From positions 1 through 21,595 of the IMG/VR virus record IMGVR_UViG_3300021375_000195: a stretch of DNA of 21,595 nucleotides, one strand, 5' to 3'. This document shows positions 1,346 through 21,595 of the stretch, piece after piece. The DNA comes from a virus. The translations under genes were made by a program, and so were the position numbers. The first letter of the stretch is position 1. Each line of letters starts with the position of its first letter. The notes under the pieces are model-generated. The model had not been told where the DNA came from, made no database searches, and saw only the letters and a list, made by a program, of their open reading frames with translations.

Positions 1346-4300
1346 TTAACTATTTATATCTTTTAAGCTTTCAATCTCAGCTCTAAGTAATTTATTTTCT
1401 TCTTTTAATTCTTTTATTGCTTCAACTATAAGTGCTGTTACTTGTGAATGCTCAATTACTTTATATTTTTCACCATCATCATGTGTTAATGATAATTCCT
1501 TTTCTTTTACAGCAGTTGGTAATACTTTTTCAACATCTTGTGCTATTAAACCAGCAGAAGGTGTACCATTCTCTTTCCAATCAAAAGTAACACCTTTTAA
1601 TTGAGATACTTTCTCTAATGCACCAGCAACAACTTGAATATTTTCTTTTAATCTTTCATCTGATGGTGTTACAGAATACGCAACTATATCACCAGTGGCA
1701 TGGAAATCTCCGTCAGATTCCATTTTAAATCTATCGGCAGCATTTGTTCTGAAACTAATATAACCATTATCGGTACTAATAGTATTAGAACTATTATATC
1801 CTATATGTTGTACTATTCCTCTTAGATCACTTTCAATATCTACACTACTGGAATTACTACTAGCGGATCCATATGCAGTAGTAATAAGACCATTTCTAAA
1901 GTTTAGTCCAAAGTCATCGCCAGCATTAGCTGCATTGTGTGTTTGTGCAGTAGTACCACTATTAAAAGTTTTAAATGTGGCAAAGGCATTTTGGTTAACT
2001 TCCGCCGTTGTCGCGATAGTCATATCATCGCCACTAGGTGTTAAGGTGATATTGGTACCAGCTACATATTGTAGATCATGAGCAACCGACGGACTGCTCT
2101 GCTGTAATCTGTGAATTACGTTATTACCATTATCCACAAACGAATGATCATAAGTTGAATTAGTATCAGTATTAGTATCCGTTGATGAAATATTAAATAC
2201 TCCAGCGGATGGTTCACTAATTGTTACATTAGTACCACTCTGGAGTGTGAGATCGCCTGATCTATAAGTACCGCTATCTTCTCTAATACGAGTAATTGTA
2301 TTATCATTCGCTGAAGTAAACGTGACTTTCTGATTAGTGGCATCAAATGATACAGATGTAGCCCCAGATCCTGCAAATCTTAATTTCTCGTTTTCTGTTA
2401 CTATAAACTTAGTTTCACCACCATCATTGGTAACTTTAAATCCGTCGCCCATATCAATCGTGTCAGTATTTGTATTAGTATCTGTAGAACTAATAGTAAA
2501 TTTATTTGCATTAGTTCTTGTTACTGTTGTTGCTCCACTTCCTACAAATTCAATATCGTGGGTAGTATTTCCGTCATGACCCGAACCAGTCAATCTAGCT
2601 TTTGTAGTTGAAGCTGGAATAGCTAGTGAATATTGGTTTTGAGTGTTTGTATCTGTATTTGTATCTGTATCTGACCAAGGCACGTTAACTACCATTTGAT
2701 TAGATGAATTAAGTTGTACACCGTATGTTCTACCTGCAGTTGATGATACACTATTAGCAGCAGTTGGGTTATCAGTATTGCTAAATAATTTAACAAGACC
2801 TAGTGTTGTACTAGTTGCAACCCCGTAGGTTGGAAATGTTGGTAAAGTAAATGGCTTTGTAGTAACTCCAGTTACGTGGCCCTGACTATTGACCGCAACA
2901 CCAGACACTACACTAAACGCTGCGCCATTAGCTAGAGTTGTATTTGACGAAGTGGTAGATGTACTAGTTACATCTGAGTGACTAATTTCTAATCTATCGC
3001 TTTCGCCAGTGTTCACTGTAATAAAATTAGTACCTATTGCAGTTCCACCGTCGATAGCTAATACTTCATCTTTAGTTATTGTCGCTACGCTGTTGCTGTC
3101 ATCTCTTACATAAAAGCGAGTTACGTCAGATTCACTAGGCTTCGGAATAGGATATGCAGTACCATTGCTATCGCCAGTAAAGTACCATCGGTCGTTTGCT
3201 TCACTCCAATAAATTTCTGCATTTGTTAGCGATCCTCTATTAACAATCAGACCAGCATCTTCAGTTGGAGTAGAAGTAGCATTTGAGTTAAGCTCAATTT
3301 TATTATCTTCAGTAGTAACAGTCTCAGTATTCATTATAGTCTGAGTACCTTCAACTCTTAGATTACCTCTGATTCTTAGATCTAGATCGTTGCCGCTGTC
3401 TCCAATATAAACAACACCTTGAGCTGGATTTAATCCTGCGAGCCTTGCTCTTAAGTTAGCATCGTTAACATTAACGTCTGTATTTGTATCTGCGGCATGA
3501 ATAGTTATTGTATCTGCAGATTCACTACCAGTAGTAGTAACAATTCCACTACCAATGATTCGGACATTAGTTGATCCACCATCATTTAATCTAACATATG
3601 GATTACTACCATTCCCGTTAACATCCAATGTAGCCGTTCTTTGTGACGTTAAGTAACCAGGATCTACAAAGTTAACAGTAACCTGATTTGCGCTTCTTAC
3701 AGTACTAATATGGTTTCCACCAGCAATATCAACTGTTGCATTAGAAGTAATAGACGCTGTGCCACCTGAATCAGCAGTTAGATTCCAATTGTTATACTTA
3801 TCATATCTACCAGTAAAGTCTTCAGAAGTAACACCAGTTAAATGCCCTCGAGTATCAACTGTTATAGATTTAATATAAACGCCGTTTTCTGCGCCAGAGT
3901 TACCGTATGTTCCATTTAAAGCAGAAAGCGGGTGACCGACAGTCATCTGATTGTTACTAGTGTTATAAACCTGCGTTAGGAATCCATCATCGTTCCAAGT
4001 AATTGTTTGCCCTGTACCACCAACTGTTTCTGAATTTGTTCCATCACTAATAGCCCATGCAGACCAACTTAGATCTGCAAGTGTAAGGTTACGTGTATTA
4101 GCATAAGCATGCGTAACGTGACCAAGTGTATTAGTGAAAACTTCTAAGTGATCTACAACTTGTGCACCGGATGTATCTAGGTCAATATCATCACCGTCAT
4201 ATGTTGGAATATTAGAAATTCTTTCGTATCGATTATCTAAATTATATTGTGTTCCACTAACACCAGTAACATGACCAAATGTATCTACATCAACATCGAA

Positions 4301-7300
4301 ACCAGTTATAACAGTACCTGTAGCGCTTCCTGTACTAATTGATGGTACACTATTATATGATGATGTATCTTCATGTGAGATTGTTAAATCATTACCGTCC
4401 CAAGATAAATCAATTCCAGTCCCTTCATCAAATCCGACTCTTTCACCTGAAGTAATAGCATCTTGTGAAGTGCCATTTACATATAGTTGCCATGAAACAT
4501 AATTATCCAATGTTGGCTTACCTGTTACATTATTCCATGCAAGGTTACCGTTAAATGTTCCAGCTGTTAGTGTATGTGTTAATGGATTATAAAGGAAGTG
4601 TGCATTATCAGAATCAATGTAAGGTCTTTGATATCCAGTTCCGTTATTTGCGCTGAACAATACCTGATAGTTTACGTTATCATTCTTCTCATCAACATTG
4701 ACATTATCAGCATTGGATACTGTAGTAACAGTTCCGGTAGAAGCTGTTGCTCCGGTTACGTGACCAAAAGTATCAAACGTCAAGGCAAGATCTTGGATAA
4801 ACGTATTGCCGGAATTATTTTGACTTAAGTTACCAACACTTGAAGTATCTGCGTGAGCAATAGAAATAGCACTTGTATCAACACCAGCTGATGTAGTCTT
4901 TGCTCCACCAACAAGAATACCACTACCTGATGTGAAGTTTACAATATCAGTATTACCTACTTGATCAACTTCTGTTCCATCTTCTTGTAATACCCAATAT
5001 GGGTTTGTCGCTTGATATCGAGTATCAAACTGACCAGAGGTTACCCCAGTTACGTGGCCTCGAGCATTAGTAATAATTGACTTAATATATTGACCGTTTT
5101 GCGTACCTGTAACACCATATGTTCCTGCAGTACCATTATTATCGTGACTAATTACAACACTATCTCCAGAGATCGAAGTTGTAAGATCGTCTCCTGTTAC
5201 TGTAGTAAATGCAAGTGAATCAGTATTTGAGTTTGCCACGACACTACCAGTATCAGCAGTAATAGTTTTCCATATATGTTGTGATGAACCTCTATCAGTG
5301 TTAATATAATTAGTAACAATAGTAGCGCCTGTTTTTACAGAAGTTTCGCTAAGACCAGCTCCTGCGCTAAATGTTAGGTTATCGTTTGGTCCAAAATCTG
5401 TGCCTTCAACTTGAGGAGTTGCGAGTGTGGCAGAAGATAGAATCAAAGATCCATCAGCTTCCCATCGGCCATAAGTACCATCGCCGTTATTGTGACCATA
5501 GTTATATACAATACTGTGAGCACCAGTTACTCCAGCAGCAACACCGCTTGGACTTGTGATTGGACCAACCTCAAAACCAAAACCACCCGTTGATGGTTCT
5601 GATGAAAGGTTATTACCTGCAAGAACTAATGTATCTTCGACTGTTAGAGTTTCAGTATTTAATGTTACACTATCACCTTCGACATATAGATCACCAGCGA
5701 CATATAAATCCTCACCAATACCTACACCACCAGCAACAGTTAAAGCACCGGTTGTCGTTGATGAAGAAGCTGTAGTATTTGTTATTGAAGTAATACCTTG
5801 AATATTTACTGTGCTTCTTAATGTTGAACCAAGAGCAACATCTAATGTTCCGTCTATATCAACATTACCAGAAATATCTAATGAGCCTGCATCTAATTCG
5901 CCGGTAAGTGTAATATTTCTAAATCCTGTAACATCTTTATTTGCATTAACAGTAACAACCTTACTAGCTGTTACTGTACCGATTGTTAATCCATCAATTC
6001 TTTCTAATTCTGTTTCATTAATAGCAGCCGATCCGATAGTAAATGATGTTCCAGTAATTGCTCCACCCGATATAGAACCAGATGTAGTAATAGTAGATGT
6101 GCCAATATTAATATTACCAAATCCTGAAGTAATGCTACCAGCATTTAGTGCACCAACAGTTGTAACATTTGGCAATGTATCTAATGCAGATTCAAAGTAG
6201 GTTTCAAAGTTCTGAAGACCAACTTGCTTCATCGTTCCATTATCATTTACGACTAATCTATCAGCATCTACAAGAGTTGTAGAAGTAGCAGATGTTCCAC
6301 CATCCATTACATTTAATTCTGTAGCAGTAGCAGTAACCGTTGTTCCATTAATTGATAATCCATCGGTTTCGATTGAACCGTTAACATCAACATTACCTTC
6401 GATATCGACATCATTATTTACGATTAAATTATTTGTGACTGTTAAGTTATTGGCAAAGGTTGCATTGGCACCATTACCTGTGAGCATTGTTGTAGTACCA
6501 GATTTAATAATTAGATTAGTACCAGAACTAGTTAATGCACCATATTGACTAGCACCAGGACCATCATTTAATTTTATATCACCACCATCAGCATCTAATG
6601 TAATATCACCATCTGAATTAATTGTAAATGCACCAGATGTAACATTAAATGCATTTGACCCTGCACTAATCTCATACGTTGATGCATCGAAGACACCTTC
6701 GATTTCATTAATCGCACCTACTAAATGGGATGCTGATGTGCCTAGGGTAACAGATCCGCTTGTATGAATATCATCATAGATTTCATTAATAGCATCTAGA
6801 ATAGAAGTTTTATCTGCAGTTTTAAGATCAGACATTTCTCTTCTAGATCCGCCAGATCCAGCATTACCAGCATTAAATAGATCAGCTTCGATTTCGTTAA
6901 TCGCACCTTGAATAAATTTGTTTGTTGTATTAAGAGTTGTAAGTGATCCTGAAACTAAAATATCATCTTGTGTATTTTTAATAGCAGTTGTAAGGTCAGC
7001 TCCTGTATAACTTGTATCACCGATTTCAGCATCAAGAACTCTGACTGCTCCAGAAAGATCAGTAGAGTTGGCAGCATCGACAGGACCACCAGTTCCAAAC
7101 ACCATGTTACCAATCTGTGATTCGTGTTCGTTAATAGCATCTCTAACGTTTTGCGCTGTAGTGTTTAATGTATAATTAGAATTTGCACCTCTTAGAACAG
7201 TTTCAAATTCATTAATTGCTTGAATAACGTTATTGGCATTTGTACCCATAACGTAACCAGTTCTTTGAGTTGTATCATCTCTTAGAACATTTTCTAATTC

Positions 7301-8905
7301 ATTAATTGCTGCAACAAGATCGGCTGTTGTATTTGTATCTAAATCATCTACATCACCGATATCACCTTGAATTTCTTTAATACCACCGACTGCAGTTGTA
7401 GCAGAATATCCAGTGGCATCATCAATTTCCAAATGATTACCAAGTTCAACTCTTAATTCTCTTACAGCTGCTGATAAATCACTTGCACTTAATCCTGTAA
7501 GTGACATATTACCAATGTCTGCTTCGTGTTCATTAATCGCCGCTGTTAAATCAGTAGCAGTTGTATTTAAACTTAATGAACCAACTTCTGTATGTAATTG
7601 ATTTAGTGCGCCAGTGATTGTATTAGAGCCAGCATCGATAGAAGTAATATTCTCATTACCAATTTGGTCTTCATGTTCTCTTACTGCCGCTGTTAGGTTT
7701 GATGCTGCTGTTCCTAAGTTACTTTGTGTTACGTCACCAATTTCATCGTGCATTTGGTCGAGTGCACCAGTAATGGTATTATTACTAGAAGCAATGGTGT
7801 TAATATTAACGTTACCAATTTGATCCTCATGCTCTCTAATAGCAGTACTTACAGTTGAAGCTGATGTTCCCATTGCTCCGGATGTAATTGTACCAAGTTC
7901 AGCATCATGTTCATTAATTGCTAGAACTAGGTCATTAGCAGCAGTTGTTAAACTCTCAACCGTACCAATGTCATCTTGTAATTCGTTAATTGCAGCTACA
8001 ACATCTAATGAGAAAACTTTAATTGCATTTCCCGAAGCAGCCGGAGTATTTAGTTCGATGTAAGAACCGTAGGTAGAATCAACTGGAACTAAAGCTCCGT
8101 GATTAGTACCAGTAATAGTATCAGTAGATCCTAATGCTCTTATTAATGTACCGGCATTAAATGATCCGTTATATGTTTTTACTCTAATTACTCCACCAGA
8201 AACAGAATGTAGAGTACCATACCAAGTTGCATTAGCCTCAACAAGTGCCTGTGTGGCTTGAGAATCGCCTTGATAAATTGTAACACCTTCAGTATAATTA
8301 GTAAGAGTTGGCGAACCGGATTGAGTAATAGTTGCTCTAATATTTGCTACGTGGAATCCGTTAGCAGTCATATCTTGAGTTAGTTCACTATTATTCTTAT
8401 ATACTCTTACAATACCTACAGGATAAGATTCAGTGACGATTCGAATAACTTTAGCGTGAGCGATAGTATCTGGAGAACTTGTGCCTACTTTTAAATCTGC
8501 AGATGTGCTAAATGTTCCTGAAGAATCTCTTACTAAAATTTTACCAATAGAAGCTGATATAATAGTTCCAGACCAAGAAGGCGATCCAGTTGTTCCTTGA
8601 TAAATAATAGCACCGGAAATATAAGAAGATGCAATTGATGAAACACCTTCTAAAATAATGTATCCGCCAGTATTATCTACTGTATGCGCCGGACTTACTT
8701 CAAATCTTGAGGTCTTAGCCGGAGAAGAAGTATCAGGACCAGCAAATAATGTATCACCAGCACCAGCCGAGTACAGATAAGTTTTATCGGCCATGAGAGC
8801 ATTGAGTTGCTCATTATCACCTAGATGCAGAGAAATCTCGTTAGACTTTTGCCTAAGAGATTCTAAGGTATCTGTTTTATAAATTCTAGTTTCTTTGTTA
8901 GCCAT
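1346..8905 (-). CDS. Giant tail fibre with AINE repeats and C-terminal S74 chaperone (2519 aa)
   Basis: This is the longest gene of the window and very probably a trimeric host-recognition fibre. Residues 5-45 (ETRIYKTDTLESLRQK, then SLHLGDNEQLNAL) form an N-terminal head that I associate with fibres of marine T4-like phages. Residues 302-740 hold 17 AINEHEADIG-like repeats spaced 22-37 residues apart, likely short coiled-coil steps. The shaft from about 740 to 2300 is Gly/Thr/Asn/Asp-rich beta sequence with six GHVTG-type repeats and DTNTDTN runs. The C-terminal domain starts near residue 2405 and carries SDERLKENI with Ser2415 and Lys2420, the self-cleavage pair of Peptidase_S74 intramolecular chaperones, followed by a Glu/Lys/Leu-rich helix. 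It would be released after trimerisation, leaving about 2414 residues in the virion. The ATG overlaps the stop of the 76-residue gene (TAATG). Confidence 0.9.
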   Translation of the reverse strand: MANKETRIYKTDTLESLRQKSNEISLHLGDNEQLNALMADKTYLYSAGAGDTLFAGPDTSSPAKTSRFEVSPAHTVDNTGGYIILEGVSSIASSYISGAIIYQGTTGSPSWSGTIISASIGKILVRDSSGTFSTSADLKVGTSSPDTIAHAKVIRIVTESYPVGIVRVYKNNSELTQDMTANGFHVANIRATITQSGSPTLTNYTEGVTIYQGDSQATQALVEANATWYGTLHSVSGGVIRVKTYNGSFNAGTLIRALGSTDTITGTNHGALVPVDSTYGSYIELNTPAASGNAIKVFSLDVVAAINELQDDIGTVESLTTAANDLVLAINEHDAELGTITSGAMGTSASTVSTAIREHEDQIGNVNINTIASSNNTITGALDQMHDEIGDVTQSNLGTAASNLTAAVREHEDQIGNENITSIDAGSNTITGALNQLHTEVGSLSLNTTATDLTAAINEHEADIGNMSLTGLSASDLSAAVRELRVELGNHLEIDDATGYSATTAVGGIKEIQGDIGDVDDLDTNTTADLVAAINELENVLRDDTTQRTGYVMGTNANNVIQAINEFETVLRGANSNYTLNTTAQNVRDAINEHESQIGNMVFGTGGPVDAANSTDLSGAVRVLDAEIGDTSYTGADLTTAIKNTQDDILVSGSLTTLNTTNKFIQGAINEIEADLFNAGNAGSGGSRREMSDLKTADKTSILDAINEIYDDIHTSGSVTLGTSASHLVGAINEIEGVFDASTYEISAGSNAFNVTSGAFTINSDGDITLDADGGDIKLNDGPGASQYGALTSSGTNLIIKSGTTTMLTGNGANATFANNLTVTNNLIVNNDVDIEGNVDVNGSIETDGLSINGTTVTATATELNVMDGGTSATSTTLVDADRLVVNDNGTMKQVGLQNFETYFESALDTLPNVTTVGALNAGSITSGFGNINIGTSTITTSGSISGGAITGTSFTIGSAAINETELERIDGLTIGTVTASKVVTVNANKDVTGFRNITLTGELDAGSLDISGNVDIDGTLDVALGSTLRSTVNIQGITSITNTTASSSTTTGALTVAGGVGIGEDLYVAGDLYVEGDSVTLNTETLTVEDTLVLAGNNLSSEPSTGGFGFEVGPITSPSGVAAGVTGAHSIVYNYGHNNGDGTYGRWEADGSLILSSATLATPQVEGTDFGPNDNLTFSAGAGLSETSVKTGATIVTNYINTDRGSSQHIWKTITADTGSVVANSNTDSLAFTTVTGDDLTTSISGDSVVISHDNNGTAGTYGVTGTQNGQYIKSIITNARGHVTGVTSGQFDTRYQATNPYWVLQEDGTEVDQVGNTDIVNFTSGSGILVGGAKTTSAGVDTSAISIAHADTSSVGNLSQNNSGNTFIQDLALTFDTFGHVTGATASTGTVTTVSNADNVNVDEKNDNVNYQVLFSANNGTGYQRPYIDSDNAHFLYNPLTHTLTAGTFNGNLAWNNVTGKPTLDNYVSWQLYVNGTSQDAITSGERVGFDEGTGIDLSWDGNDLTISHEDTSSYNSVPSISTGSATGTVITGFDVDVDTFGHVTGVSGTQYNLDNRYERISNIPTYDGDDIDLDTSGAQVVDHLEVFTNTLGHVTHAYANTRNLTLADLSWSAWAISDGTNSETVGGTGQTITWNDDGFLTQVYNTSNNQMTVGHPLSALNGTYGNSGAENGVYIKSITVDTRGHLTGVTSEDFTGRYDKYNNWNLTADSGGTASITSNATVDIAGGNHISTVRSANQVTVNFVDPGYLTSQRTATLDVNGNGSNPYVRLNDGGSTNVRIIGSGIVTTTGSESADTITIHAADTNTDVNVNDANLRARLAGLNPAQGVVYIGDSGNDLDLRIRGNLRVEGTQTIMNTETVTTEDNKIELNSNATSTPTEDAGLIVNRGSLTNAEIYWSEANDRWYFTGDSNGTAYPIPKPSESDVTRFYVRDDSNSVATITKDEVLAIDGGTAIGTNFITVNTGESDRLEISHSDVTSTSTTSSNTTLANGAAFSVVSGVAVNSQGHVTGVTTKPFTLPTFPTYGVATSTTLGLVKLFSNTDNPTAANSVSSTAGRTYGVQLNSSNQMVVNVPWSDTDTNTDTNTQNQYSLAIPASTTKARLTGSGHDGNTTHDIEFVGSGATTVTRTNANKFTISSTDTNTNTDTIDMGDGFKVTNDGGETKFIVTENEKLRFAGSGATSVSFDATNQKVTFTSANDNTITRIREDSGTYRSGDLTLQSGTNVTISEPSAGVFNISSTDTNTDTNSTYDHSFVDNGNNVIHRLQQSSPSVAHDLQYVAGTNITLTPSGDDMTIATTAEVNQNAFATFKTFNSGTTAQTHNAANAGDDFGLNFRNGLITTAYGSASSNSSSVDIESDLRGIVQHIGYNSSNTISTDNGYISFRTNAADRFKMESDGDFHATGDIVAYSVTPSDERLKENIQVVAGALEKVSQLKGVTFDWKENGTPSAGLIAQDVEKVLPTAVKEKELSLTHDDGEKYKVIEHSQVTALIVEAIKELKEENKLLRAEIESLKDINS
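1349..1678 (-). other. Peptidase_S74 intramolecular chaperone domain of the giant fibre
   Basis: Residues from about 2410 to 2519 match the S74 pattern: SDERLKENI (Ser codon at 1663-1661, Lys codon at 1648-1646), then GVTFDWKENG, AGLIAQDVEKVLP and YKVIEHSQVTALIVEAIKEL, and a terminal Leu/Glu/Lys-rich helix. In the family, the domain folds as a trimer, guides folding of the upstream fibre and is cut off next to the conserved Ser by a Ser-Lys dyad. Both residues are present, so self-cleavage is expected. Confidence 0.9.
1351..1358 (-). promoter_or_regulatory. T4-type late promoter octamer TATAAATA before the 113-aa gene
   Basis: An exact TATAAATA on the coding strand lies in the last codons of the giant fibre gene and ends 17 bases before the ATG at 1333. 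In T4 this octamer alone directs late transcription with the gp55 sigma factor. With initiation a few bases downstream, the AAAGGA ribosome site would sit near the very 5' end of the transcript, so the leader would be short. Confidence 0.5.
2640..2673 (+). repeat. Period-6 tandem repeat encoding (DTNTDTN)
   Basis: The plus strand reads gtatct/gtattt hexamers in tandem here, encoding SDTDTNTDTNTQ on the minus strand. Similar short runs occur at about 2164-2185, 2461-2488 and 3479-3495, giving STDTNTDTN, STDTNTNTDT and ADTNTDVN. Hexamer gain or loss keeps frame, so copy number could vary between relatives. Confidence 0.7.
2848..5100 (-). repeat. Six dispersed GHVTG-type repeats in the fibre shaft
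   Basis: The shaft contains NARGHVTGVTS, DTFGHVTGATAS, DTFGHVTGVSG, NTLGHVTHAYA, DTRGHLTGVTS and NSQGHVTGVTT between about residues 1280 and 2020. Several copies are preceded by GTYG..G..NGxYIKSI and followed by a DxRY motif (FDTRYQ, LDNRYE, FTGRYD), giving a larger module of roughly 40 residues. The left-hand partial fibre has a related [12 protein letters not shown]. Confidence 0.7.
6686..8002 (-). repeat. Seventeen AINExE-IG protein repeats in the fibre N-terminal part
   Basis: Residues 302-740 of the fibre contain 17 degenerate copies of a block such as AINEHEADIG, AIREHEDQIG, ALDQMHDEIG or AVRELRVELG, spaced 22-37 residues apart with Ser/Thr/Asn-rich linkers (for example LNTTATDLT, LGTSASTVS). 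At DNA level the cognate 'ttcattaatngc' string recurs on the plus strand. The Ala-Ile-Asn-Glu blocks suit short amphipathic helices of a trimeric coiled coil broken by loops. Confidence 0.8.
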
Positions 8906-14446: not shown

Positions 14447-15832
14447 TTAGAATTCAATAATAATTTTTATGTCTTCAATCTGTGATGCTGTTCTGTCAAT
14501 AGGATTTCTGTTTTCTAGGAAGATAACATCTCCACTATGGATATCAACTTCTGGGTTAATTAAGAATTGTGAACTAGAAGACTTAGGAGTACCTTGTGCT
14601 CCAGATGTTGCACCAGCCACAGCAGTTCCAGTAACAAAGTTTCCATAACCTGTTTTTGAATTTTGGTTGTAATACACATAACCGGTTCCTGCATCAATCT
14701 CAACAATAAATGCTTGAGCGAGGCTAGCGCCTGTTCCTTGTGTAATTAGTTCATCAACTTGGAAAGCCGATGTAGTTGATTGGAAGCTTAAAGCTCCTGT
14801 TGCTTTTAACGTTGTTGCTGTAGAAACCGTAGATGTACCAAAGTTAAATGGATTTTTAACAAGCGTAATTTGTCTAAAGTCATTACCAACTGTTAAGTCA
14901 CCACCGCCAGTACCATCTAGTAATGTATTAACTGCAGAAAAGAAACCACCTAGTTCTTTTACTGGGTCAGTCCCATGCCCATTTTCTGGAGAAATAACTG
15001 CTCGAGCTGTGGCATCAGAACCACCTCCACCAGTTATTACAACGTGTGCTGTTGAATAATCTGTACCCTTAGCAGTAACGGTAAGACCGGTCACAACTGT
15101 ACCGGTTCTCACTGCAGTAGCAGTAGCTCCAGTTCCAGCACCAGTAATAAACACTGTTGGGTTAGAACTATATCCAGTACCACCAGCCGTTACTTCGAAT
15201 CTTTCAATACCTGCAGCTGTACCAGAATCCCTAGAAGCTTTTTGGTTTAGATACTGTGCATAGTCACCTTCAGATAAAGCAGTCTCAGCAGCGTCATCAT
15301 CAGCAAAGGATTCAACATTAATAGTTTTAACAGGCATGTATGAAGTTGTAAGGAATTTTTCTGCATCAGCGACGGCAACCGTGTACATATATTTCCAAAT
15401 ATAAAGATCAGACTCTGCTGTTGGAGCAGTTAATGTTTGTGTTGGCTCTTGAGTTGAACCAGTTCCAGGAGTGTATATACATTTATATACCTTAAACTCT
15501 GAAGTAATAACATAAAAAGCTTTATCAAAGATATCCGGATCGTTAGAATCCCACGCAACATAACTTGTACCAGTTGTCCAAGTATGTCTAGGAATAACAT
15601 GCGATACATCTCCAGCAGCTAGCTTCTTCAGTGCAAAGATATTTTCTCTAGCTTCAACTAAAGAATCAATTGTATCGTATGGGGTGAATGGAGTTGTGTC
15701 TGTTGTGTCAGAAGTTGAATTAGACCAAGCGTCAGATTTACCGATCGCTACAAACACGCTTGCGCTTGCTATGTCTTCTTTGAAATTTTCTGCATTCAAC
15801 GTTCTGAATTTAGAAGTTACTATTGCCGTCAT
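14447..15832 (-). CDS. gp8: Baseplate wedge protein gp8 with GxGY-repeat insertion (461 aa)
   Basis: Both ends align by eye with T4 gp8 (334 residues). Residues 3-11 AIVTSKFRT are identical to T4; VIPRHTW (79-85) matches VIPRRDW, DLYIWKYMY (142-150) matches YVWEYLF, DFRQITLVKNPF (318-329) matches GFRQISIITNPL, and the end (SGDVIFLENRNPI, QIEDIKIIIEF) matches the T4 C-terminus. In T4 gp8 is a dimeric wedge subunit that binds gp7, gp10 and gp6. The extra length includes an insertion at about 208-280 with two GTGYSSNP/GTDYSTAH repeats ending in ITGGGGSDATA, and more sequence at 330-420. AGGA lies nearby upstream of the ATG, and a late promoter octamer lies 47 bases upstream. Confidence 0.95.
   Translation of the reverse strand: MTAIVTSKFRTLNAENFKEDIASASVFVAIGKSDAWSNSTSDTTDTTPFTPYDTIDSLVEARENIFALKKLAAGDVSHVIPRHTWTTGTSYVAWDSNDPDIFDKAFYVITSEFKVYKCIYTPGTGSTQEPTQTLTAPTAESDLYIWKYMYTVAVADAEKFLTTSYMPVKTINVESFADDDAAETALSEGDYAQYLNQKASRDSGTAAGIERFEVTAGGTGYSSNPTVFITGAGTGATATAVRTGTVVTGLTVTAKGTDYSTAHVVITGGGGSDATARAVISPENGHGTDPVKELGGFFSAVNTLLDGTGGGDLTVGNDFRQITLVKNPFNFGTSTVSTATTLKATGALSFQSTTSAFQVDELITQGTGASLAQAFIVEIDAGTGYVYYNQNSKTGYGNFVTGTAVAGATSGAQGTPKSSSSQFLINPEVDIHSGDVIFLENRNPIDRTASQIEDIKIIIEF
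14993..15211 (-). repeat. GxGYxxxP repeat pair inserted in gp8
   Basis: Residues 208-280 hold two copies of a unit of about 36 residues: IERFEVTAGGTGYSSNPTVF with ITGAGTGATATA, and LTVTAKGTDYSTAHVVI with TGGGGSDATARA. The unit is the same type as the array in gp7 and has no counterpart in T4 gp8. Confidence 0.8.
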
Positions 15833-15844
15833 TTTTATTTCCTA

Positions 15845-18274
15845 TTAATTTGTGTGAATAAAAGAATTCACGTTATATTTATTTATATCACTTATAGAAG
15901 TACTTTGTAATTCTACACTACCTAATATCTCTAAAGTTTCGTTAAAATCGTAAAGCATATTATTTTCTAATATGTTAGTTTTTTGACTATAGTAGTCATT
16001 TGATTGAATAGTCCTATATCCTGCAGGAACTACTGTTACATCATAACCTCCCATAGCTTTATCACTGGCCGGAGTAGTCTCGGATATAGTCCAATTTTGT
16101 CCAGAAGTTAATACACCTTTCTGTAAAAGATTACCATTATATAATTGTCTTCCTCTTACAGATTTGTTGGTTTGTACTGGATTTGTTACTTTATTAAATA
16201 CTGGATTTACGTCAGTATGGTTTAACTCTAATATTCTAGTAATTTTATCTGACTTAACCCTAGCTTCATTTTTAGCCCTAGAAGCAATATACACTTGAGG
16301 TATTATCACATATCCAAAACCTGGATTAGTGATTGAAGCTGATGCAATTTCTGATGGAACTAACTGAACTCTTGCGGTTGCATTACCAACAATTGCTATA
16401 TTAGGAACCTCAGTAAATCCAGATCCAGGATTAACAACATCTATATGTGACACTTTACCGTGTTCAATATAAGATATTGCTGTAGCATTAGAACCGCCAC
16501 CCCCAGTTATTGATACTGCAGGTGGAGATGTATATCCGGATCCGCTATTGATAACTTCAATACGATGTACTGAAGTAGCTTGAAGAATATATTTACCGGT
16601 TGCAGTAACATTAGTAGATAAAGGTACACCAAGATTATCAACTGAAGTAGGAGCATCAAAGCTAATTAACGGAGGCGTTGAATATTTCTTAGTAGTGTCT
16701 GGTGTAACTGTAATATTCGCAATCTTAGATAAGTTTGGATTTGCAGTTACATTGGCAAAGGCTGATGAATAGTTTGCGCCAGTAGCAGTAACAGTTGCAC
16801 TATTAATTTTTCCATCTGAATCTATAGTACAAGTGACAGTGGCTTGAGTTATTGTTTGACCTGTAGTAGCAACACCGTTAACCACAACTGTTGGTGCAGA
16901 TGCATACCCGAACCCAGCCTCAGCAATTTCAACTGCAGTAACTTTACCAGCATTACTTCCAGATTGTGGAACAGTTAAAGATAATCTTCCAGATTTATGG
17001 ACATTAACGCTAGTAGCCGGTAAAAACAATGAAGCGAACATTTCAACAATTAAAGGAATATCCTCAAGTCCAATAACACCAGGCTGTAAATCTGGCATAG
17101 ACGAATATGTAAATCTGTTTGTTCTTCCATAACCAAAGAAACTTTCTCCAGTTAATTGATTGTGCTTAGGCCCACCGACGTATCTTAGTTCTCTTAGAAG
17201 TTTTTGATCATCTCCTAACTCATCACGAGTTAAGAACAATTGTATTAGGATCTCAGCAAAATATTTAAATCCAGCTGGATGTACAAGTCTATTATAGAAA
17301 TAATCCCATGATGACAAGTTTTGACCTGTACGTATTAAATACGAAAACTTTTGATATCTTAAACTGTCTTGAACTTTAATTGTATCTGATAAGAAACCTT
17401 TTTTATCTAAATAGATACCTCCTTTAGGAAGAGCTGAATTTGGTTCCCAGTTTCCGGAAGAAGGAATGAGTGTGCTATCCCACGGATATTCAACCTCAAC
17501 TTCGTCATCAAATAATAACCTAAAAAATACTTCAATAGAATCTGACGAACCACGGATTTTATAATAATCTGTAATTGCTTTATACAAGTTTCTTTTATTA
17601 ACTTGGATAGAACGTGGAACAACAGCCGCAATTTCTTTTTGGATTAATTCCAAATAAGCTGCGGCTGTGCTATCGATATCCATAGACTCTTCAATTGTAT
17701 TAAGAGCATATGAAGCACCAGGGCCAGCCCAATATTTTATTGGGGTAGTAAGAGTTGCTGTCTGTGTATTGTAATTAACATAACCACTACTAGTCGGATG
17801 TCCGAAACTAATAGTAAAAGTTTTACCAATATCAGATGTTGATTGCGATAGAGAACCAGGCAAATTATTGCCATTAGTTATATTAACATTAGATGCAGTA
17901 AGCACATATGTTACAATATCTCCATCACTATCAGTTAAAGTTAGTGTGGAGTTAGCTCCATCATCATCTGTAAAAAAGTGATCGTTTTCATTTCTTGGAT
18001 CACTAACTCTGAAAACTGCTTTATTATCTAATACAACATCAGTGTATGTTTCTGTCTGTTGATATACGAACTCTTCTAAGTTCATAAATTTGTAATAAGC
18101 TTCTAATAATAATTGTAATCCACCCGAGTTTTCTAATATCTCAGATGGAATTAGTTCTTCTGTTCTTAGATTTTCTTTGGTCTTACTTTTAGAAGACGCA
18201 ACAGATTGAATATATCCAGGTGAGGATATATCTGAAGAGAAGAGTGTATTATTTGTTTTATGAGTTCCAGCCAT
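15845..18274 (-). CDS. gp7: Baseplate wedge protein gp7, compact form with C-terminal repeat array (809 aa)
   Basis: The gene sits between 6 and 8 as in T4. Two blocks align by eye with the C-terminal part of T4 gp7 (1032 residues): residues 227-263 (KRNLYKAITDYYKIRGSSDS, then FFRLLFDDEVEVEYPWD) match the T4 'RSYDFYSTKGIEASYKFLFK..LYNEEVEIE' segment, and 306-347 (RYQKFSYLIRTGQNLSSWDY, then RLVHPAGFKYFAEIL) match 'SYYVMKI...RW...IRFVHPVGF'. T4 gp7 is the central wedge subunit that bundles with gp6. The long N-terminal part of T4 gp7 has no visible equivalent here; residues 1-225 are short and unlike it. Residues 446-672 carry an array of GFGYASAP/GSGYTSPP/GSGFTEVP/GFGYVIIP repeats. One base separates the gp6 stop from the ATG. 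Confidence 0.88.
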   Translation of the reverse strand: MAGTHKTNNTLFSSDISSPGYIQSVASSKSKTKENLRTEELIPSEILENSGGLQLLLEAYYKFMNLEEFVYQQTETYTDVVLDNKAVFRVSDPRNENDHFFTDDDGANSTLTLTDSDGDIVTYVLTASNVNITNGNNLPGSLSQSTSDIGKTFTISFGHPTSSGYVNYNTQTATLTTPIKYWAGPGASYALNTIEESMDIDSTAAAYLELIQKEIAAVVPRSIQVNKRNLYKAITDYYKIRGSSDSIEVFFRLLFDDEVEVEYPWDSTLIPSSGNWEPNSALPKGGIYLDKKGFLSDTIKVQDSLRYQKFSYLIRTGQNLSSWDYFYNRLVHPAGFKYFAEILIQLFLTRDELGDDQKLLRELRYVGGPKHNQLTGESFFGYGRTNRFTYSSMPDLQPGVIGLEDIPLIVEMFASLFLPATSVNVHKSGRLSLTVPQSGSNAGKVTAVEIAEAGFGYASAPTVVVNGVATTGQTITQATVTCTIDSDGKINSATVTATGANYSSAFANVTANPNLSKIANITVTPDTTKKYSTPPLISFDAPTSVDNLGVPLSTNVTATGKYILQATSVHRIEVINSGSGYTSPPAVSITGGGGSNATAISYIEHGKVSHIDVVNPGSGFTEVPNIAIVGNATARVQLVPSEIASASITNPGFGYVIIPQVYIASRAKNEARVKSDKITRILELNHTDVNPVFNKVTNPVQTNKSVRGRQLYNGNLLQKGVLTSGQNWTISETTPASDKAMGGYDVTVVPAGYRTIQSNDYYSQKTNILENNMLYDFNETLEILGSVELQSTSISDINKYNVNSFIHTN
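15880..15887 (-). promoter_or_regulatory. T4-type late promoter octamer before gp8
   Basis: An exact TATAAATA lies in the 3' end of the gp7 gene, 47 bases before the gp8 ATG at 15832. The distance leaves a normal leader containing the AGGA ribosome site. Confidence 0.6.
16259..16939 (-). repeat. GxGYxxxP repeat array in gp7
   Basis: Residues 446-672 contain at least four clear copies, VEIAEAGFGYASAPTVVV, IEVINSGSGYTSPPAVSI, IDVVNPGSGFTEVPNIAI and ASITNPGFGYVIIPQVYI, plus a weaker one near 491-508 (TVTATGANYSSAF). Several continue into G(G)GGSNATA or GNATARV. The pattern predicts a series of small beta modules. Confidence 0.85.
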
Positions 18275-18275
18275 C

Positions 18276-20144
18276 TTATCTTAGCCTTGCGGTCGTTGAA
18301 TAATCTATTGTACCAGAAGATCCTGCCACTGATATTGTATCAATGCTTGGAGTAATCTGAACTCTTAAAGGATCAATTGCAATAAGCTGATCTCTCTTTG
18401 GAGCAAGGTCTAATGAGTTAGGTACAACTGTAATTCTAATTGTATCTACAGAATCATTATCAGGTATAAAGTTATTTAATGAGATCGTTCCTTTCTGAAC
18501 GTCAATAATTCCAGCGTTATTAATCACTGTAACATTTTCTCCATTCACGACTTTATAAGCCATAACCTGTCTATTAGTAGATCCTGTAATTGGAATATCA
18601 CCAAAGTAAACTTCTTCTCCACCGTACTTCCACATTGTTGAAGAAATAATAAAGTTAGTAGAAGAACCTGAACTAAAGAATGGTGATGTAAATTGTAAAT
18701 CAAAGTTATTGTCTTTATTTGATGCGGCCTTGTTAGGAGTAATCGTCATGAACATATATGGACGTACGTTACTATTCTGTATAGAAGGATCTGCGTTATC
18801 AATCGCTTTAAGTAATTGTGAGTGTCTAAATACACCATCAAATTTATTAAGCTCGTTGAAATTGTAATCTGAAACTGTGTCTCTTACAACGGCGGTTAAT
18901 TCGACCGGAGATCTATCAGTTAAGTTAGGATTATATTTAAATGATACATCAAGATCAAGATACGTAAAGTTGGGATCTACAATCACTGGAGTAATAGATA
19001 CAACGCTTTTACCTTTTAATATAGTATTCATAATCTCTGTTTTTTCTGTTGTAGTTAAAGTATCATTTACAAGAGGTTTAATAGAAATATAAATTGAACC
19101 ATAATCAGGCGGATCATTATCTTCACCACCCCAGGTTGAGATCGAATTGATATTAGTAAATTCTTTTTGAATAATTGCTCTATAGTCATCAGACGTTACT
19201 GCTCTATTTTGAGAAGTAAAAGTAAGAGGCGCGTTAAAACGAATTGATTCATTTGTTTCTTTGACTGTACCACCATCAGACTTTGCCAAAGTAGTAATAG
19301 CGATATTGCTATAACCGCCAATATTATCTACCATAGTAAATAAGTTTGCACCATTTGAATCAGGACCATTAGTAAATAGATAGTCAAGTGTGACAATATT
19401 ATTGTTCAATGGTTTCTTACCAGTTACACCATCTCCAAAATATACTTCAAAATATTCATTTGAATTTTCTTGTAGATAATATACACGGCTAGATGAATTA
19501 ACACTAATTAATGATTCAAACTTTGTATAGTTATCGTATGACGTAGATGATTCATTTGCCTGAACAAGAACTCTTAATGTAGAAGTGTCAGCATCATCAT
19601 CTGATATCTGATACTTCTGATTTTCTATATCGTTGTCTACTCTGTATAAAAGCTTCTTCCTTGTTCCTTCGGCAATTACTACATTGGGAAATATATATTT
19701 GTTTGCAACAGTTTCTCCAAGTACAGCAGACTGTTCATTAAGTACGATATATCTATAGTTTCTTCCGTCAACTTGCGTGGTTAGTTTCGTGCCTCGAGTA
19801 AGAGTCAACGAAGCCGGTTTATTGCCCTGCTCATTAGTGACGTCAACTGTGATTGTGACTTGGGCTCTTGGCGCTAAGACTGATCTTGGTATATAACCTA
19901 GCAACTTTGCACGGGTCACAATGTTACCACGGATTTGTGCTGAATCTAAGAATGCTTCATTAAGGGCAAAGTGAGCAGCCATCGCATTATAGTGTGTATT
20001 ATATGCAAGCACATCCAAGAGTGAAGATAAACCTGATCCTTCAAAATCGTGACTACTAAACTCTGTCTGAGTTTTTAAATAGTTCTTTAGATTCTTTTTG
20101 ATCTGATCGAAATCAAGTTCGGTTACATTTAAATTAGTTGCCAT
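18276..20144 (-). CDS. gp6: Baseplate wedge protein gp6 (622 aa)
   Basis: Residues 13-87 (DQIKKNLKNYLKTQTEFSSH, DFEGSGLSSLLDVLAYNTHY, IRGNIVTRAKLLGYIP) align by eye with T4 gp6 (660 residues: FAEIKQNLIEWL, YDFEGSRLNVLCDLLAYNT, LRSSVVQAAQDNGYLP). Residues 230-270 (EYFEVYFGDGVTGKKPLNNN, then VTLDYLFTNGPDSNGANLF) carry the 'FGdG..G..p..g..v...Y..TnG..aNG' motif common to gp6 and the Baseplate_J family. In T4, gp6 dimers join neighbouring wedges into the ring around the hub and, with gp7, control the change of the baseplate to its star form. The start lies six bases after the gp25 stop with AAGG upstream; its own stop is one base from the gp7 ATG, so 25-6-7 form a tight unit. Confidence 0.96.
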   Translation of the reverse strand: MATNLNVTELDFDQIKKNLKNYLKTQTEFSSHDFEGSGLSSLLDVLAYNTHYNAMAAHFALNEAFLDSAQIRGNIVTRAKLLGYIPRSVLAPRAQVTITVDVTNEQGNKPASLTLTRGTKLTTQVDGRNYRYIVLNEQSAVLGETVANKYIFPNVVIAEGTRKKLLYRVDNDIENQKYQISDDDADTSTLRVLVQANESSTSYDNYTKFESLISVNSSSRVYYLQENSNEYFEVYFGDGVTGKKPLNNNIVTLDYLFTNGPDSNGANLFTMVDNIGGYSNIAITTLAKSDGGTVKETNESIRFNAPLTFTSQNRAVTSDDYRAIIQKEFTNINSISTWGGEDNDPPDYGSIYISIKPLVNDTLTTTEKTEIMNTILKGKSVVSITPVIVDPNFTYLDLDVSFKYNPNLTDRSPVELTAVVRDTVSDYNFNELNKFDGVFRHSQLLKAIDNADPSIQNSNVRPYMFMTITPNKAASNKDNNFDLQFTSPFFSSGSSTNFIISSTMWKYGGEEVYFGDIPITGSTNRQVMAYKVVNGENVTVINNAGIIDVQKGTISLNNFIPDNDSVDTIRITVVPNSLDLAPKRDQLIAIDPLRVQITPSIDTISVAGSSGTIDYSTTARLR

Positions 20145-20150
20145 AGTATT

Positions 20151-20600
20151 TTACCTTAAACGCCTTAATACGATTTCTACGTCATCTGTAGTATCGAATT
20201 CTTTTATTCTAAATTTTACAAGTATTCTATAAGAGTTATTATCTGGTTCATCTACTATATTGACAAAGACGATATCAACTCTTTGTTCACCAGCCTTTAT
20301 GGCTCTTATAATATTCTTGCGTAATGTTTGTTTTGTAATCGCATCTGCCGGTTCAAACAGCAATGCCCTTAGATTTGCCCCAACTCCTAAGTTAAATGGC
20401 TTCTCATAAAAATTAGTTACGAGTAAATTACGTACTGCATATCTTATTGCCTGATCATCTTTAAGAGGAATAATATCTTTACGAATTGGATGCAGTGCTA
20501 GATTTAAATCAAGGTCAGTCCATTGCTTGAGACGCGATGATGTAGAAGCCTTTCTAGTATCTCCTATAACTGATTTATCTGATTGAATTATTGTAGACAT
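20151..20600 (-). CDS. gp25: Baseplate wedge protein gp25 (149 aa)
   Basis: Length and pattern fit the GPW/gp25 family (T4 gp25, 132 residues; TssE in type VI secretion). After an N-terminal extension of about 27 residues, the conserved core runs through DLDLNLALHP, the basic helix AIRYAVRNLLVT, the turn KPFNLGVGANLRALLFEP (T4: RPFDPEFGCDLSDQLFEN), the TLRKNIIRAI helix, VDIVFVNIVDEPDNNSYRIL and KFRIKEFDTTDD. The family's EPR motif appears as EQR at 105-107. In T4, gp25 holds the gp6-gp7 core bundle and touches the first sheath ring. AAAGGAG lies 13 bases upstream of the ATG, a long spacing, with TATAAATA between them. Confidence 0.95.
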   Translation of the reverse strand: MSTIIQSDKSVIGDTRKASTSSRLKQWTDLDLNLALHPIRKDIIPLKDDQAIRYAVRNLLVTNFYEKPFNLGVGANLRALLFEPADAITKQTLRKNIIRAIKAGEQRVDIVFVNIVDEPDNNSYRILVKFRIKEFDTTDDVEIVLRRLR

Positions 20601-20633: not shown

Positions 20634-20936
20634 TTATCCGGCAAAAACATTACTTGAACCATCAGCTACCGATGTGCAGTCGGCTACTTCATCATTCTTT
20701 CGACCTATACCTTTACCATTTACAAATACTTTAGTAGAACCAACGGCAATAGCTGCACTGTGCGGAGTACAAGGTCCATGCGGGGGTTTTAAATGTATAC
20801 TATTCTTATCTCCTTGACGCGAGACTGGTATACCATTACAAAAAACATTAGAACTACCCATGGCTCTTACTGGCCCACTACAATGAGTCTGATCCGGATC
20901 TCCAACTCGTGCTACTTTTTGTGAATCACTTGCCAT
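20634..20936 (-). CDS. PAAR-repeat spike-tip protein (100 aa)
   Basis: This is a typical small PAAR protein, the sharpened zinc-binding cone at the end of a contractile tail spike (T4 gp5.4, 97 residues). Seen in the sequence: ARVGDPDQTHCSGPV (9-23), GSSNVFCNGIPVSRQGDK (27-44), HLKPPHGPCTPHS (48-60), GSTKVFVNGKGIGRKND (66-82) and a final DGSSNVFAG. The 'GSxxVFxNG' strand motif therefore occurs about three times, and the His and Cys residues at 18-19, 48, 53, 56 and 59 are candidates for the metal site. The start has AAGGAG six bases upstream and lies 10 bases after the protease stop. In T4 gene 5.4 also lies just before gene 6; here gene 25 is interposed. Confidence 0.95.
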   Translation of the reverse strand: MASDSQKVARVGDPDQTHCSGPVRAMGSSNVFCNGIPVSRQGDKNSIHLKPPHGPCTPHSAAIAVGSTKVFVNGKGIGRKNDEVADCTSVADGSSNVFAG

Positions 20937-20946
20937 TATTTTCTCC

Positions 20947-21595
20947 TTATGATATGCCAGCTAGCTTAGTATTTATTTGACTGACTGTAAAGTTTATTTT
21001 ATTACTTGCCGAAACAGTTTGAGTGGAAGTAATAGTGGTATTTGATATTGTACTGGGATTAAAAGAAAGGCTAGGATCTAAGTATGCAATCTTACCAGAG
21101 TAACCTCTCAATCCAAGCGGATCACCATAATACGGGGCATCACCTGACGGCGATGAGGGCATTGGCCGAGTCCCGCTATCGTATAGTGTATCCGTTCCGA
21201 CAGCGTTTTCTCTAAAGTATTTTCTTAATTGTGCTGGCGTTGTAGTAGGATACTTTCCTAATACACATGCAGCCATTCCTCCAATATTTGGAGAAGCAAA
21301 AGATGTTCCAGTTGCTTCATACTCACCATTAACATGTAGATTCATATAGATATTATCACCAGCTGCACATGCGTCAATACGATCACCTCGATTACTAAAT
21401 GATGCAAGTGTTTCTTTATTGCTTAATCCAGAATCAACACTAAATTGTGAACCTAATGCTGCGCACACTATAGTATCACCAGCCAAATGTAAATCGTCTC
21501 TGCATAATGGAACAAACATATAAGGCTGAGGGGCAGATCCGTCATTGCTACCCACCAATATAGACATATGTGATAAAGCCCCATTGTTAAAATCT
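20947..21595 (-). CDS. Subtilisin-like (S8) serine protease, C-terminal part (runs off right edge)
   Basis: The frame is open to the window edge. An internal ATG at 21567 exists, but the upstream codons (ending DFNNGALSH) continue without a stop, so this is the tail of a larger protein. Numbering from that Met, GSNDGS (6-11) fits the oxyanion Asn region of subtilases, LASFSNRGDRIDACAAG (54-70) matches the 'ASFSs.G...dv.APG' block, and GTSFASPNIGGMAACVLG (87-104) is the catalytic Ser signature with Ser89. The Asp and His of the triad would lie to the right of the window. After the protease core comes a Ser/Thr-rich C-terminal tail of about 50 residues. It lies directly upstream of the PAAR gene, where T4 has its hub-lysozyme gene 5 region. 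It may be a virion-associated or processing protease; which is not shown. Confidence 0.88.
   Translation of the reverse strand, partial: DFNNGALSHMSILVGSNDGSAPQPYMFVPLCRDDLHLAGDTIVCAALGSQFSVDSGLSNKETLASFSNRGDRIDACAAGDNIYMNLHVNGEYEATGTSFASPNIGGMAACVLGKYPTTTPAQLRKYFRENAVGTDTLYDSGTRPMPSSPSGDAPYYGDPLGLRGYSGKIAYLDPSLSFNPSTISNTTITSTQTVSASNKINFTVSQINTKLAGIS
20970..20977 (-). promoter_or_regulatory. Possible weak late promoter (AATAAATA) before the PAAR gene
   Basis: AATAAATA matches seven of eight bases of the late octamer and lies 33 bases before the PAAR ATG, inside the 3' end of the protease gene. The spacing is suitable, but a single 7/8 match in AT-rich DNA is weak evidence. Confidence 0.25.

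Follow-up and report, generated by a model that had tools for sequence, protein, structure and literature searches.

The locus and its gene order

Why does an uncultured marine phage encode a subtilisin-type protein directly beside the gene for its spike tip (PAAR)? The window, as the whole analysed stretch of 21,595 nucleotides (IMG/VR record IMGVR_UViG_3300021375_000195) is called here, holds only part of the gene in question, a minus-strand frame of 215 amino acids (aa) at 20947-21594 that is open to the right edge. This frame matches Peptidase_S8 (PF00082; E 2.4e-10 and 40.6 bits, the cut-off being 21.8; the search of the record gave E 1.7e-12) and contains GTSFASP, the motif of the nucleophile Ser476 (21289..21309, minus strand), whose GTS is invariant in the group of proteins described below. 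Its stop codon reaches 20947, and PAAR begins at 20936; both the profile match and the coordinates therefore confirm the initial annotation, which had described a subtilase C-terminus with an intact GTSFASP motif lying 10 bases before PAAR. The genes that follow, all on the minus strand, encode the PAAR spike-tip protein of 100 aa (20634..20936; PF05488, E 4.3e-12, phrog_281), a gp25-like baseplate wedge or sheath initiator protein (20151..20600; PF04965, phrog_261), and a gp6-like baseplate wedge protein (18276..20144; phrog_219, E 1.3e-165), for which the nearest isolates, about 40% identical, are SAR11 and OM43 phages.

The missing N-terminal half was taken from contig L002, which overlaps the window over 2,321 bp with 1 mismatch and adds 3.5 kb to it; L041, a third contig, shows 9 mismatches to L002 in 3,527 bp and reaches further. 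The full-length subtilase-fold protein, P0001 (L002:2397-4178), has 593 aa, of which the window covers residues 379-593, and is made up of a prodomain-like N-terminus, a subtilase core and a C-terminal tag, with a score of 51.5 bits against PF00082, above the curated cut-off of 21.8. The tag, SNKINFTVSQINTKLAGIS (20950..21006, minus strand), is common to the C-terminus of the protein encoded upstream, P375, in L002 and L041. No signal peptide was seen on inspection of the P0001 N-terminus, MTKLYNIILNPGYDQTD.

Read together, L002, L041 and the window give the gene order phrog_350 tail protein, gp5-like protein, P375, P0001, PAAR, gp25 and gp6. The subtilase-fold gene is thus real and stands in the hub/spike block, between the gp5-like side and PAAR. 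A fusion to the gp5 hub, which had also been suggested, is contradicted by a separate gp5-like gene two genes upstream of P0001, which encodes 226 aa with Gp5_OB and a trimerisation domain. No lysozyme domain was found in this 226-aa protein, and this is nothing special, because, according to Pfam, the SAR11 phages HTVC008M and Mosig likewise have Gp5 proteins without one.

Loss of the catalytic aspartate

At the Asp motif, P0001 reads GDGVDIILQIASVLDPSDPEF where its cyanophage relatives read GKNVDVVIMDTGVRWNHPEF; the alignment is free of gaps, Ile136 occupies the position of the catalytic Asp, and there is no D[TS]G motif. His187 (HAEAV), Asn367 (AAGN) and Ser476 (GTS) are all present. The initial annotation had proposed to look for the Asp and His motifs in the N-terminal half, and in L002 the two part ways: the His motif is found and the Asp motif is not. 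Ile in place of the catalytic Asp is one of the outcomes that the annotation itself had named as refuting, and it speaks against the canonical protease that had been placed on the spike.

Scans of viral contigs seeded with PAAR, P0001 and alignments returned about 100 loci, overlaps included, and 56 distinct matching stretches among them. A tree built from 47 related proteins of phages puts the 28 long sequences without Asp in a single clade (support 100/100), although the root is not known and a statement that Asp was lost once presumes that it was ancestral, as in S8 generally. Where the motif is covered, which is so in 30 Asp-less sequences, the residue at this position is never acidic (I 13, L 10, T 4, V 1, A 1, G 1), and Asp is kept in 19 of 19 Asp-keeping relatives. 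Sequencing error or a pseudogene was rejected as an explanation, as many independent contigs carry the Asp-less motif in open frames. Moreover, dN/dS of 0.12-0.18 for pairs among L002, L005 and L006 indicates an open frame under purifying selection, the comparison value for part of gp6 being 0.025; the subtilase-fold gene is under constraint, yet evolves faster than the gp6 wedge. For the near-identical pair L016/L018, dN/dS exceeds 1, but synonymous changes are very few there and the value was left uninterpreted. A scan of genome contigs found no cellular relative, and no description of this Asp-less clade was found in the literature on subtilases in phage tails. Two Asp-less subtilase-fold paralogues, both with the tag, are encoded on one contig, L079 (1044-2918 and 4995-6737).

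Of 494 columns aligned across the 28 Asp-less proteins, 52 are invariant, and these include H187, N367 and S476. The context of the invariant His is HAE or HSE and not HG[TS], and Glu stands at His+2 in 27 of the 28, as against 0 of 19 Asp-keeping relatives. It is unlikely that this Glu has to stand in for the lost acid, because L060 has Lys there and still retains His, Asn and Ser. Among other candidates, D248 (PTIVVDA), beside the Asp32 strand, was rejected, since the rest of the Asp-less proteins have A, S, T, N or C at its place; the clade-specific acids D530 and D551 both follow the Ser motif, close to where the core ends or past it. An alternative acid could be brought in by the fold. 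AlphaFold2, run on 8 close sequences, returned a model with a mean pLDDT of 36.9 in which only residues 1-60 are confident, and because the model is poor no active-site geometry was taken from it. The substrate strand also differs, being of NGSWG type in the Asp-keeping relatives and of VDAIQ type in the Asp-less clade.

Known phage S8 proteins (PHROG 3677 'protease', PHROG 9158; cyanophages P-SSM2, S-SCSM1, S-CREM1 and S-T4) have the same profile fold and the same His, oxyanion Asn and Ser motifs, and the cyanophage members also sit among tail genes. They are, however, about 21-25% identical to P0001, keep DTG or DSG (DAH in S-CREM1) and HG[ST], which P0001 does not, carry no C-terminal tag, and are not beside PAAR in the stretches compared. 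In S-SCSM1, one distant relative that keeps Asp bears a virion-protein annotation; the virion proteome of this phage was measured by mass spectrometry, and the available portion of that account does not name the S8 relative (PMC9602691).

Outside phages, sedolisins (S53) resemble P0001 in belonging to the subtilisin-like superfamily with no acid at the Asp32 place, but they use a Glu base, an Asp acid at base+4 on the same helix, and an Asp in the oxyanion hole (PMC11593635), where P0001 has His187, Val191 (+4) and Asn367. The pseudoproteases CspC and CspA likewise combine a subtilase fold and a prodomain with an incomplete triad; CspC of Clostridioides difficile, however, retains Asp but has lost His and Ser (PMC6636752), whereas both His and Ser are kept in all members of the Asp-less clade. 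With Val at +4 and His and Asn retained, P0001 thus fits neither the sedolisin nor the CspC pattern.

A pure pseudoprotease, in which the fold would be a peptide- or surface-binding (receptor-binding) domain of an appendage and Ser, His and Asn would be kept for shape, is a serious possibility, if a somewhat doubtful one. It agrees with the clade-wide loss of the acid with no obligatory substitute, with the altered substrate strand, and with the ligand sensing of known subtilase pseudoproteases (CspC, PMC6636752); the invariance of GTS and AAGN may likewise reflect structure instead of catalysis. On the other hand, the losses in CspC are the opposite ones, and His, Asn and Ser do not vary at all even where identity falls to about 32%, which exceeds what would be expected from binding alone.

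The prodomain-like N-terminus

Residues 1-60, the confident part of the otherwise poor model, form a beta-alpha-beta-beta-alpha-beta unit, which is the layout of the I9 prodomain. A Pfam scan of this part gave no I9 match. One subclade encodes the prodomain-like N-terminus as a small open reading frame of its own (L061:5995-6204, and also in L062, L063, L064 and L065), whose stop and the start of the subtilase frame overlap in L061 and L063 (TGATG and TAATG, respectively).

Such a unit would suit a one-shot processing factor that makes a single cut during assembly, in its own prodomain or in the tags of the pair, and is structural afterwards, as in subtilases that cut only themselves. A single turnover demands little activity, and a tagged neighbour is encoded directly upstream. 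This reading is nonetheless improbable: Pfam I9 is unmatched, the subtilase-fold protein itself bears the tag, and a self-cut is unnecessary in L061-L065 because the prodomain-like part is there a separate, coupled frame.

A C-terminal tag common to adjacent proteins

A tag of roughly 14 residues (INFTxxQINTKL) is found at the C-terminus of most of the Asp-less clade and also on the protein encoded directly upstream. P375 and P0001 are unrelated apart from their C-terminal stretches, which are identical at 12 of 18 positions (L002), a level reached by 0 of 1000 shuffles. A tag profile made from the S8 side, with the same locus left out, was used to score partner C-termini against unrelated controls at 17 loci, and the upstream partner scored above all unrelated controls in 13 of them; one control that scored above a partner is a partner homologue from L018. 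L050 passed only narrowly, and L060, L090, L086 and L087 failed. By the single-pair shuffle test, the similarity is not significant in L023, L050, L055, L056 and L090, and the partner lacks the tag in L086/L087, as does the S8 protein in L061-L065. In records of up to 39 kb the tag was detected only in these gene pairs, and a tblastn search with the tag alone against phages gave no match.

The upstream tagged protein is the most constant partner of the subtilase-fold gene, and it differs in kind between phages, though the tag is common to the pair. It is a Mu gp48-like wedge protein in L056 (phrog_203) and carries a T7 fibre N-terminal domain in L079 (PF03906), a Collar domain in L083 (PF07484), cadherin repeats in L057, and a weakly matching Ig-like domain in the window lineage (P375, 375 aa). 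In the T4-like set of L090, the protein encoded between gp5 and the subtilase-fold gene (L090:2552-4993) combines glycosyl hydrolase family 10 (E 4e-49) with Ig-like domains, and its tag is doubtful. As for candidate domains for attachment to the virion, the L079 partner has the T7 fibre N-terminal domain and the L056 partner is Mu gp48-like, and none was identified in P375.

The tag is short and absent at some loci, as might be expected of a recombination remnant with no docking role, left by an S8-like gene that moves as cargo between tail gene sets; yet it is retained on both C-termini of the pair, however much the partner otherwise varies, and was not found elsewhere in the searched records, which makes this very improbable.

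Linkage to PAAR

PAAR directly follows the subtilase-fold gene in L023, in L090 and in the window lineage. Adjacency of S8 and PAAR genes, for which the initial annotation had proposed a search in other myoviruses, therefore exists elsewhere but is not general: in L049-L055 the gene pair is kept with no PAAR between it and gp25, and the records of L050 and L055, in which PAAR was not found, are fragments, so that missing there does not mean missing from the phage. Relatives also occur in Mu-like and T7-like tail gene sets, none with a detected PAAR, and PAAR was not found in the fragmentary records of L056, L057, L058, L060, L061, L080, L083 and L087. The adjacency is limited to T4-like contigs and is missing in some of those. 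In L016, about 540 bases (5686-6227) separate PAAR from the gp25 frame, compared with 33 in the window.

The T4 gp5/gp5.4 spike and type VI PAAR-linked effectors have the gene block of gp5-like protein, PAAR, gp25 and gp6 in common with this locus; unlike in those systems, PAAR is here a stand-alone protein of 100 aa and the subtilase a separate gene, and neither the fusion nor the consistent linkage that marks PAAR-linked spike cargo was found. That the protein is a working subtilisin-type protease borne by the PAAR spike, or one that acts in maturation, as was put forward initially, is hardly credible despite the adjacency in the window lineage, L023 and L090, given the missing Asp, the sets in which PAAR does not intervene before gp25 or was not found (L049-L055 and the non-T4-like relatives, respectively), and a most constant neighbour that is the tagged protein and not PAAR.

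Proposed role of the tagged pair

The lost Asp, together with a tag held in common with the neighbour, makes the gene product look like an interchangeable tail part and not a normal protease. The explanation that we prefer, tentatively, is an exchangeable subunit of a tail appendage, docked through its tag, with an acid-less Ser/His site that would be weakly active or binding only. Such a subunit would act at the host surface; the matching tags would hold the two proteins together on the tail, with the upstream protein as the putative virion anchor and the subtilase-fold protein as the outer, host-facing part. The acid-less site may turn over slowly or just once, perhaps with help from the Glu at His+2, and its target would be a surface protein of the host or the appendage itself. 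In the T4-like lineage of the window, attachment near the spike is possible because the two genes lie between those for the gp5-like spike and PAAR. We infer virion location, docking and any activity from sequence.

Such docking would resemble anchor-branch receptor-binding systems (Klebsiella phage KP32, G7C, K1-5), which pair an anchor protein with a second protein attached via a short conserved peptide (PMC6872550) and are likewise encoded by next-door genes. Their peptide is N-terminal on the second protein, which is a depolymerase, whereas here the same C-terminal tag stands on both proteins and the second has a subtilase fold.

It is also conceivable, though rather unlikely, that these proteins represent a third active-site layout in the subtilisin superfamily, namely a Ser-His site with neither an Asp32-type nor a sedolisin acid, perhaps with Glu at His+2, in a tag-docked appendage swapped among T4-like, Mu-like and T7-like phages. 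A natural family with one triad member missing and two kept can be used to test whether a subtilisin site works without its acid; moreover, a short C-terminal tag may let one host-facing protein fit tails of differing build.

Other tail proteins of the window

Two further observations concern tail genes elsewhere in the window. The minus-strand gene at 1346-8905 encodes a 2519-aa protein with a C-terminal endosialidase-chaperone domain (PF13884), probably a long tail fibre. At 14447-18274 (minus strand), the gp7-like and gp8-like wedge proteins have a glycine-rich repeat in common, of the type SGYTSPPAVSITGGGGSNATA; the repeat region matches head-closure PHROGs, and such annotations may mislead.
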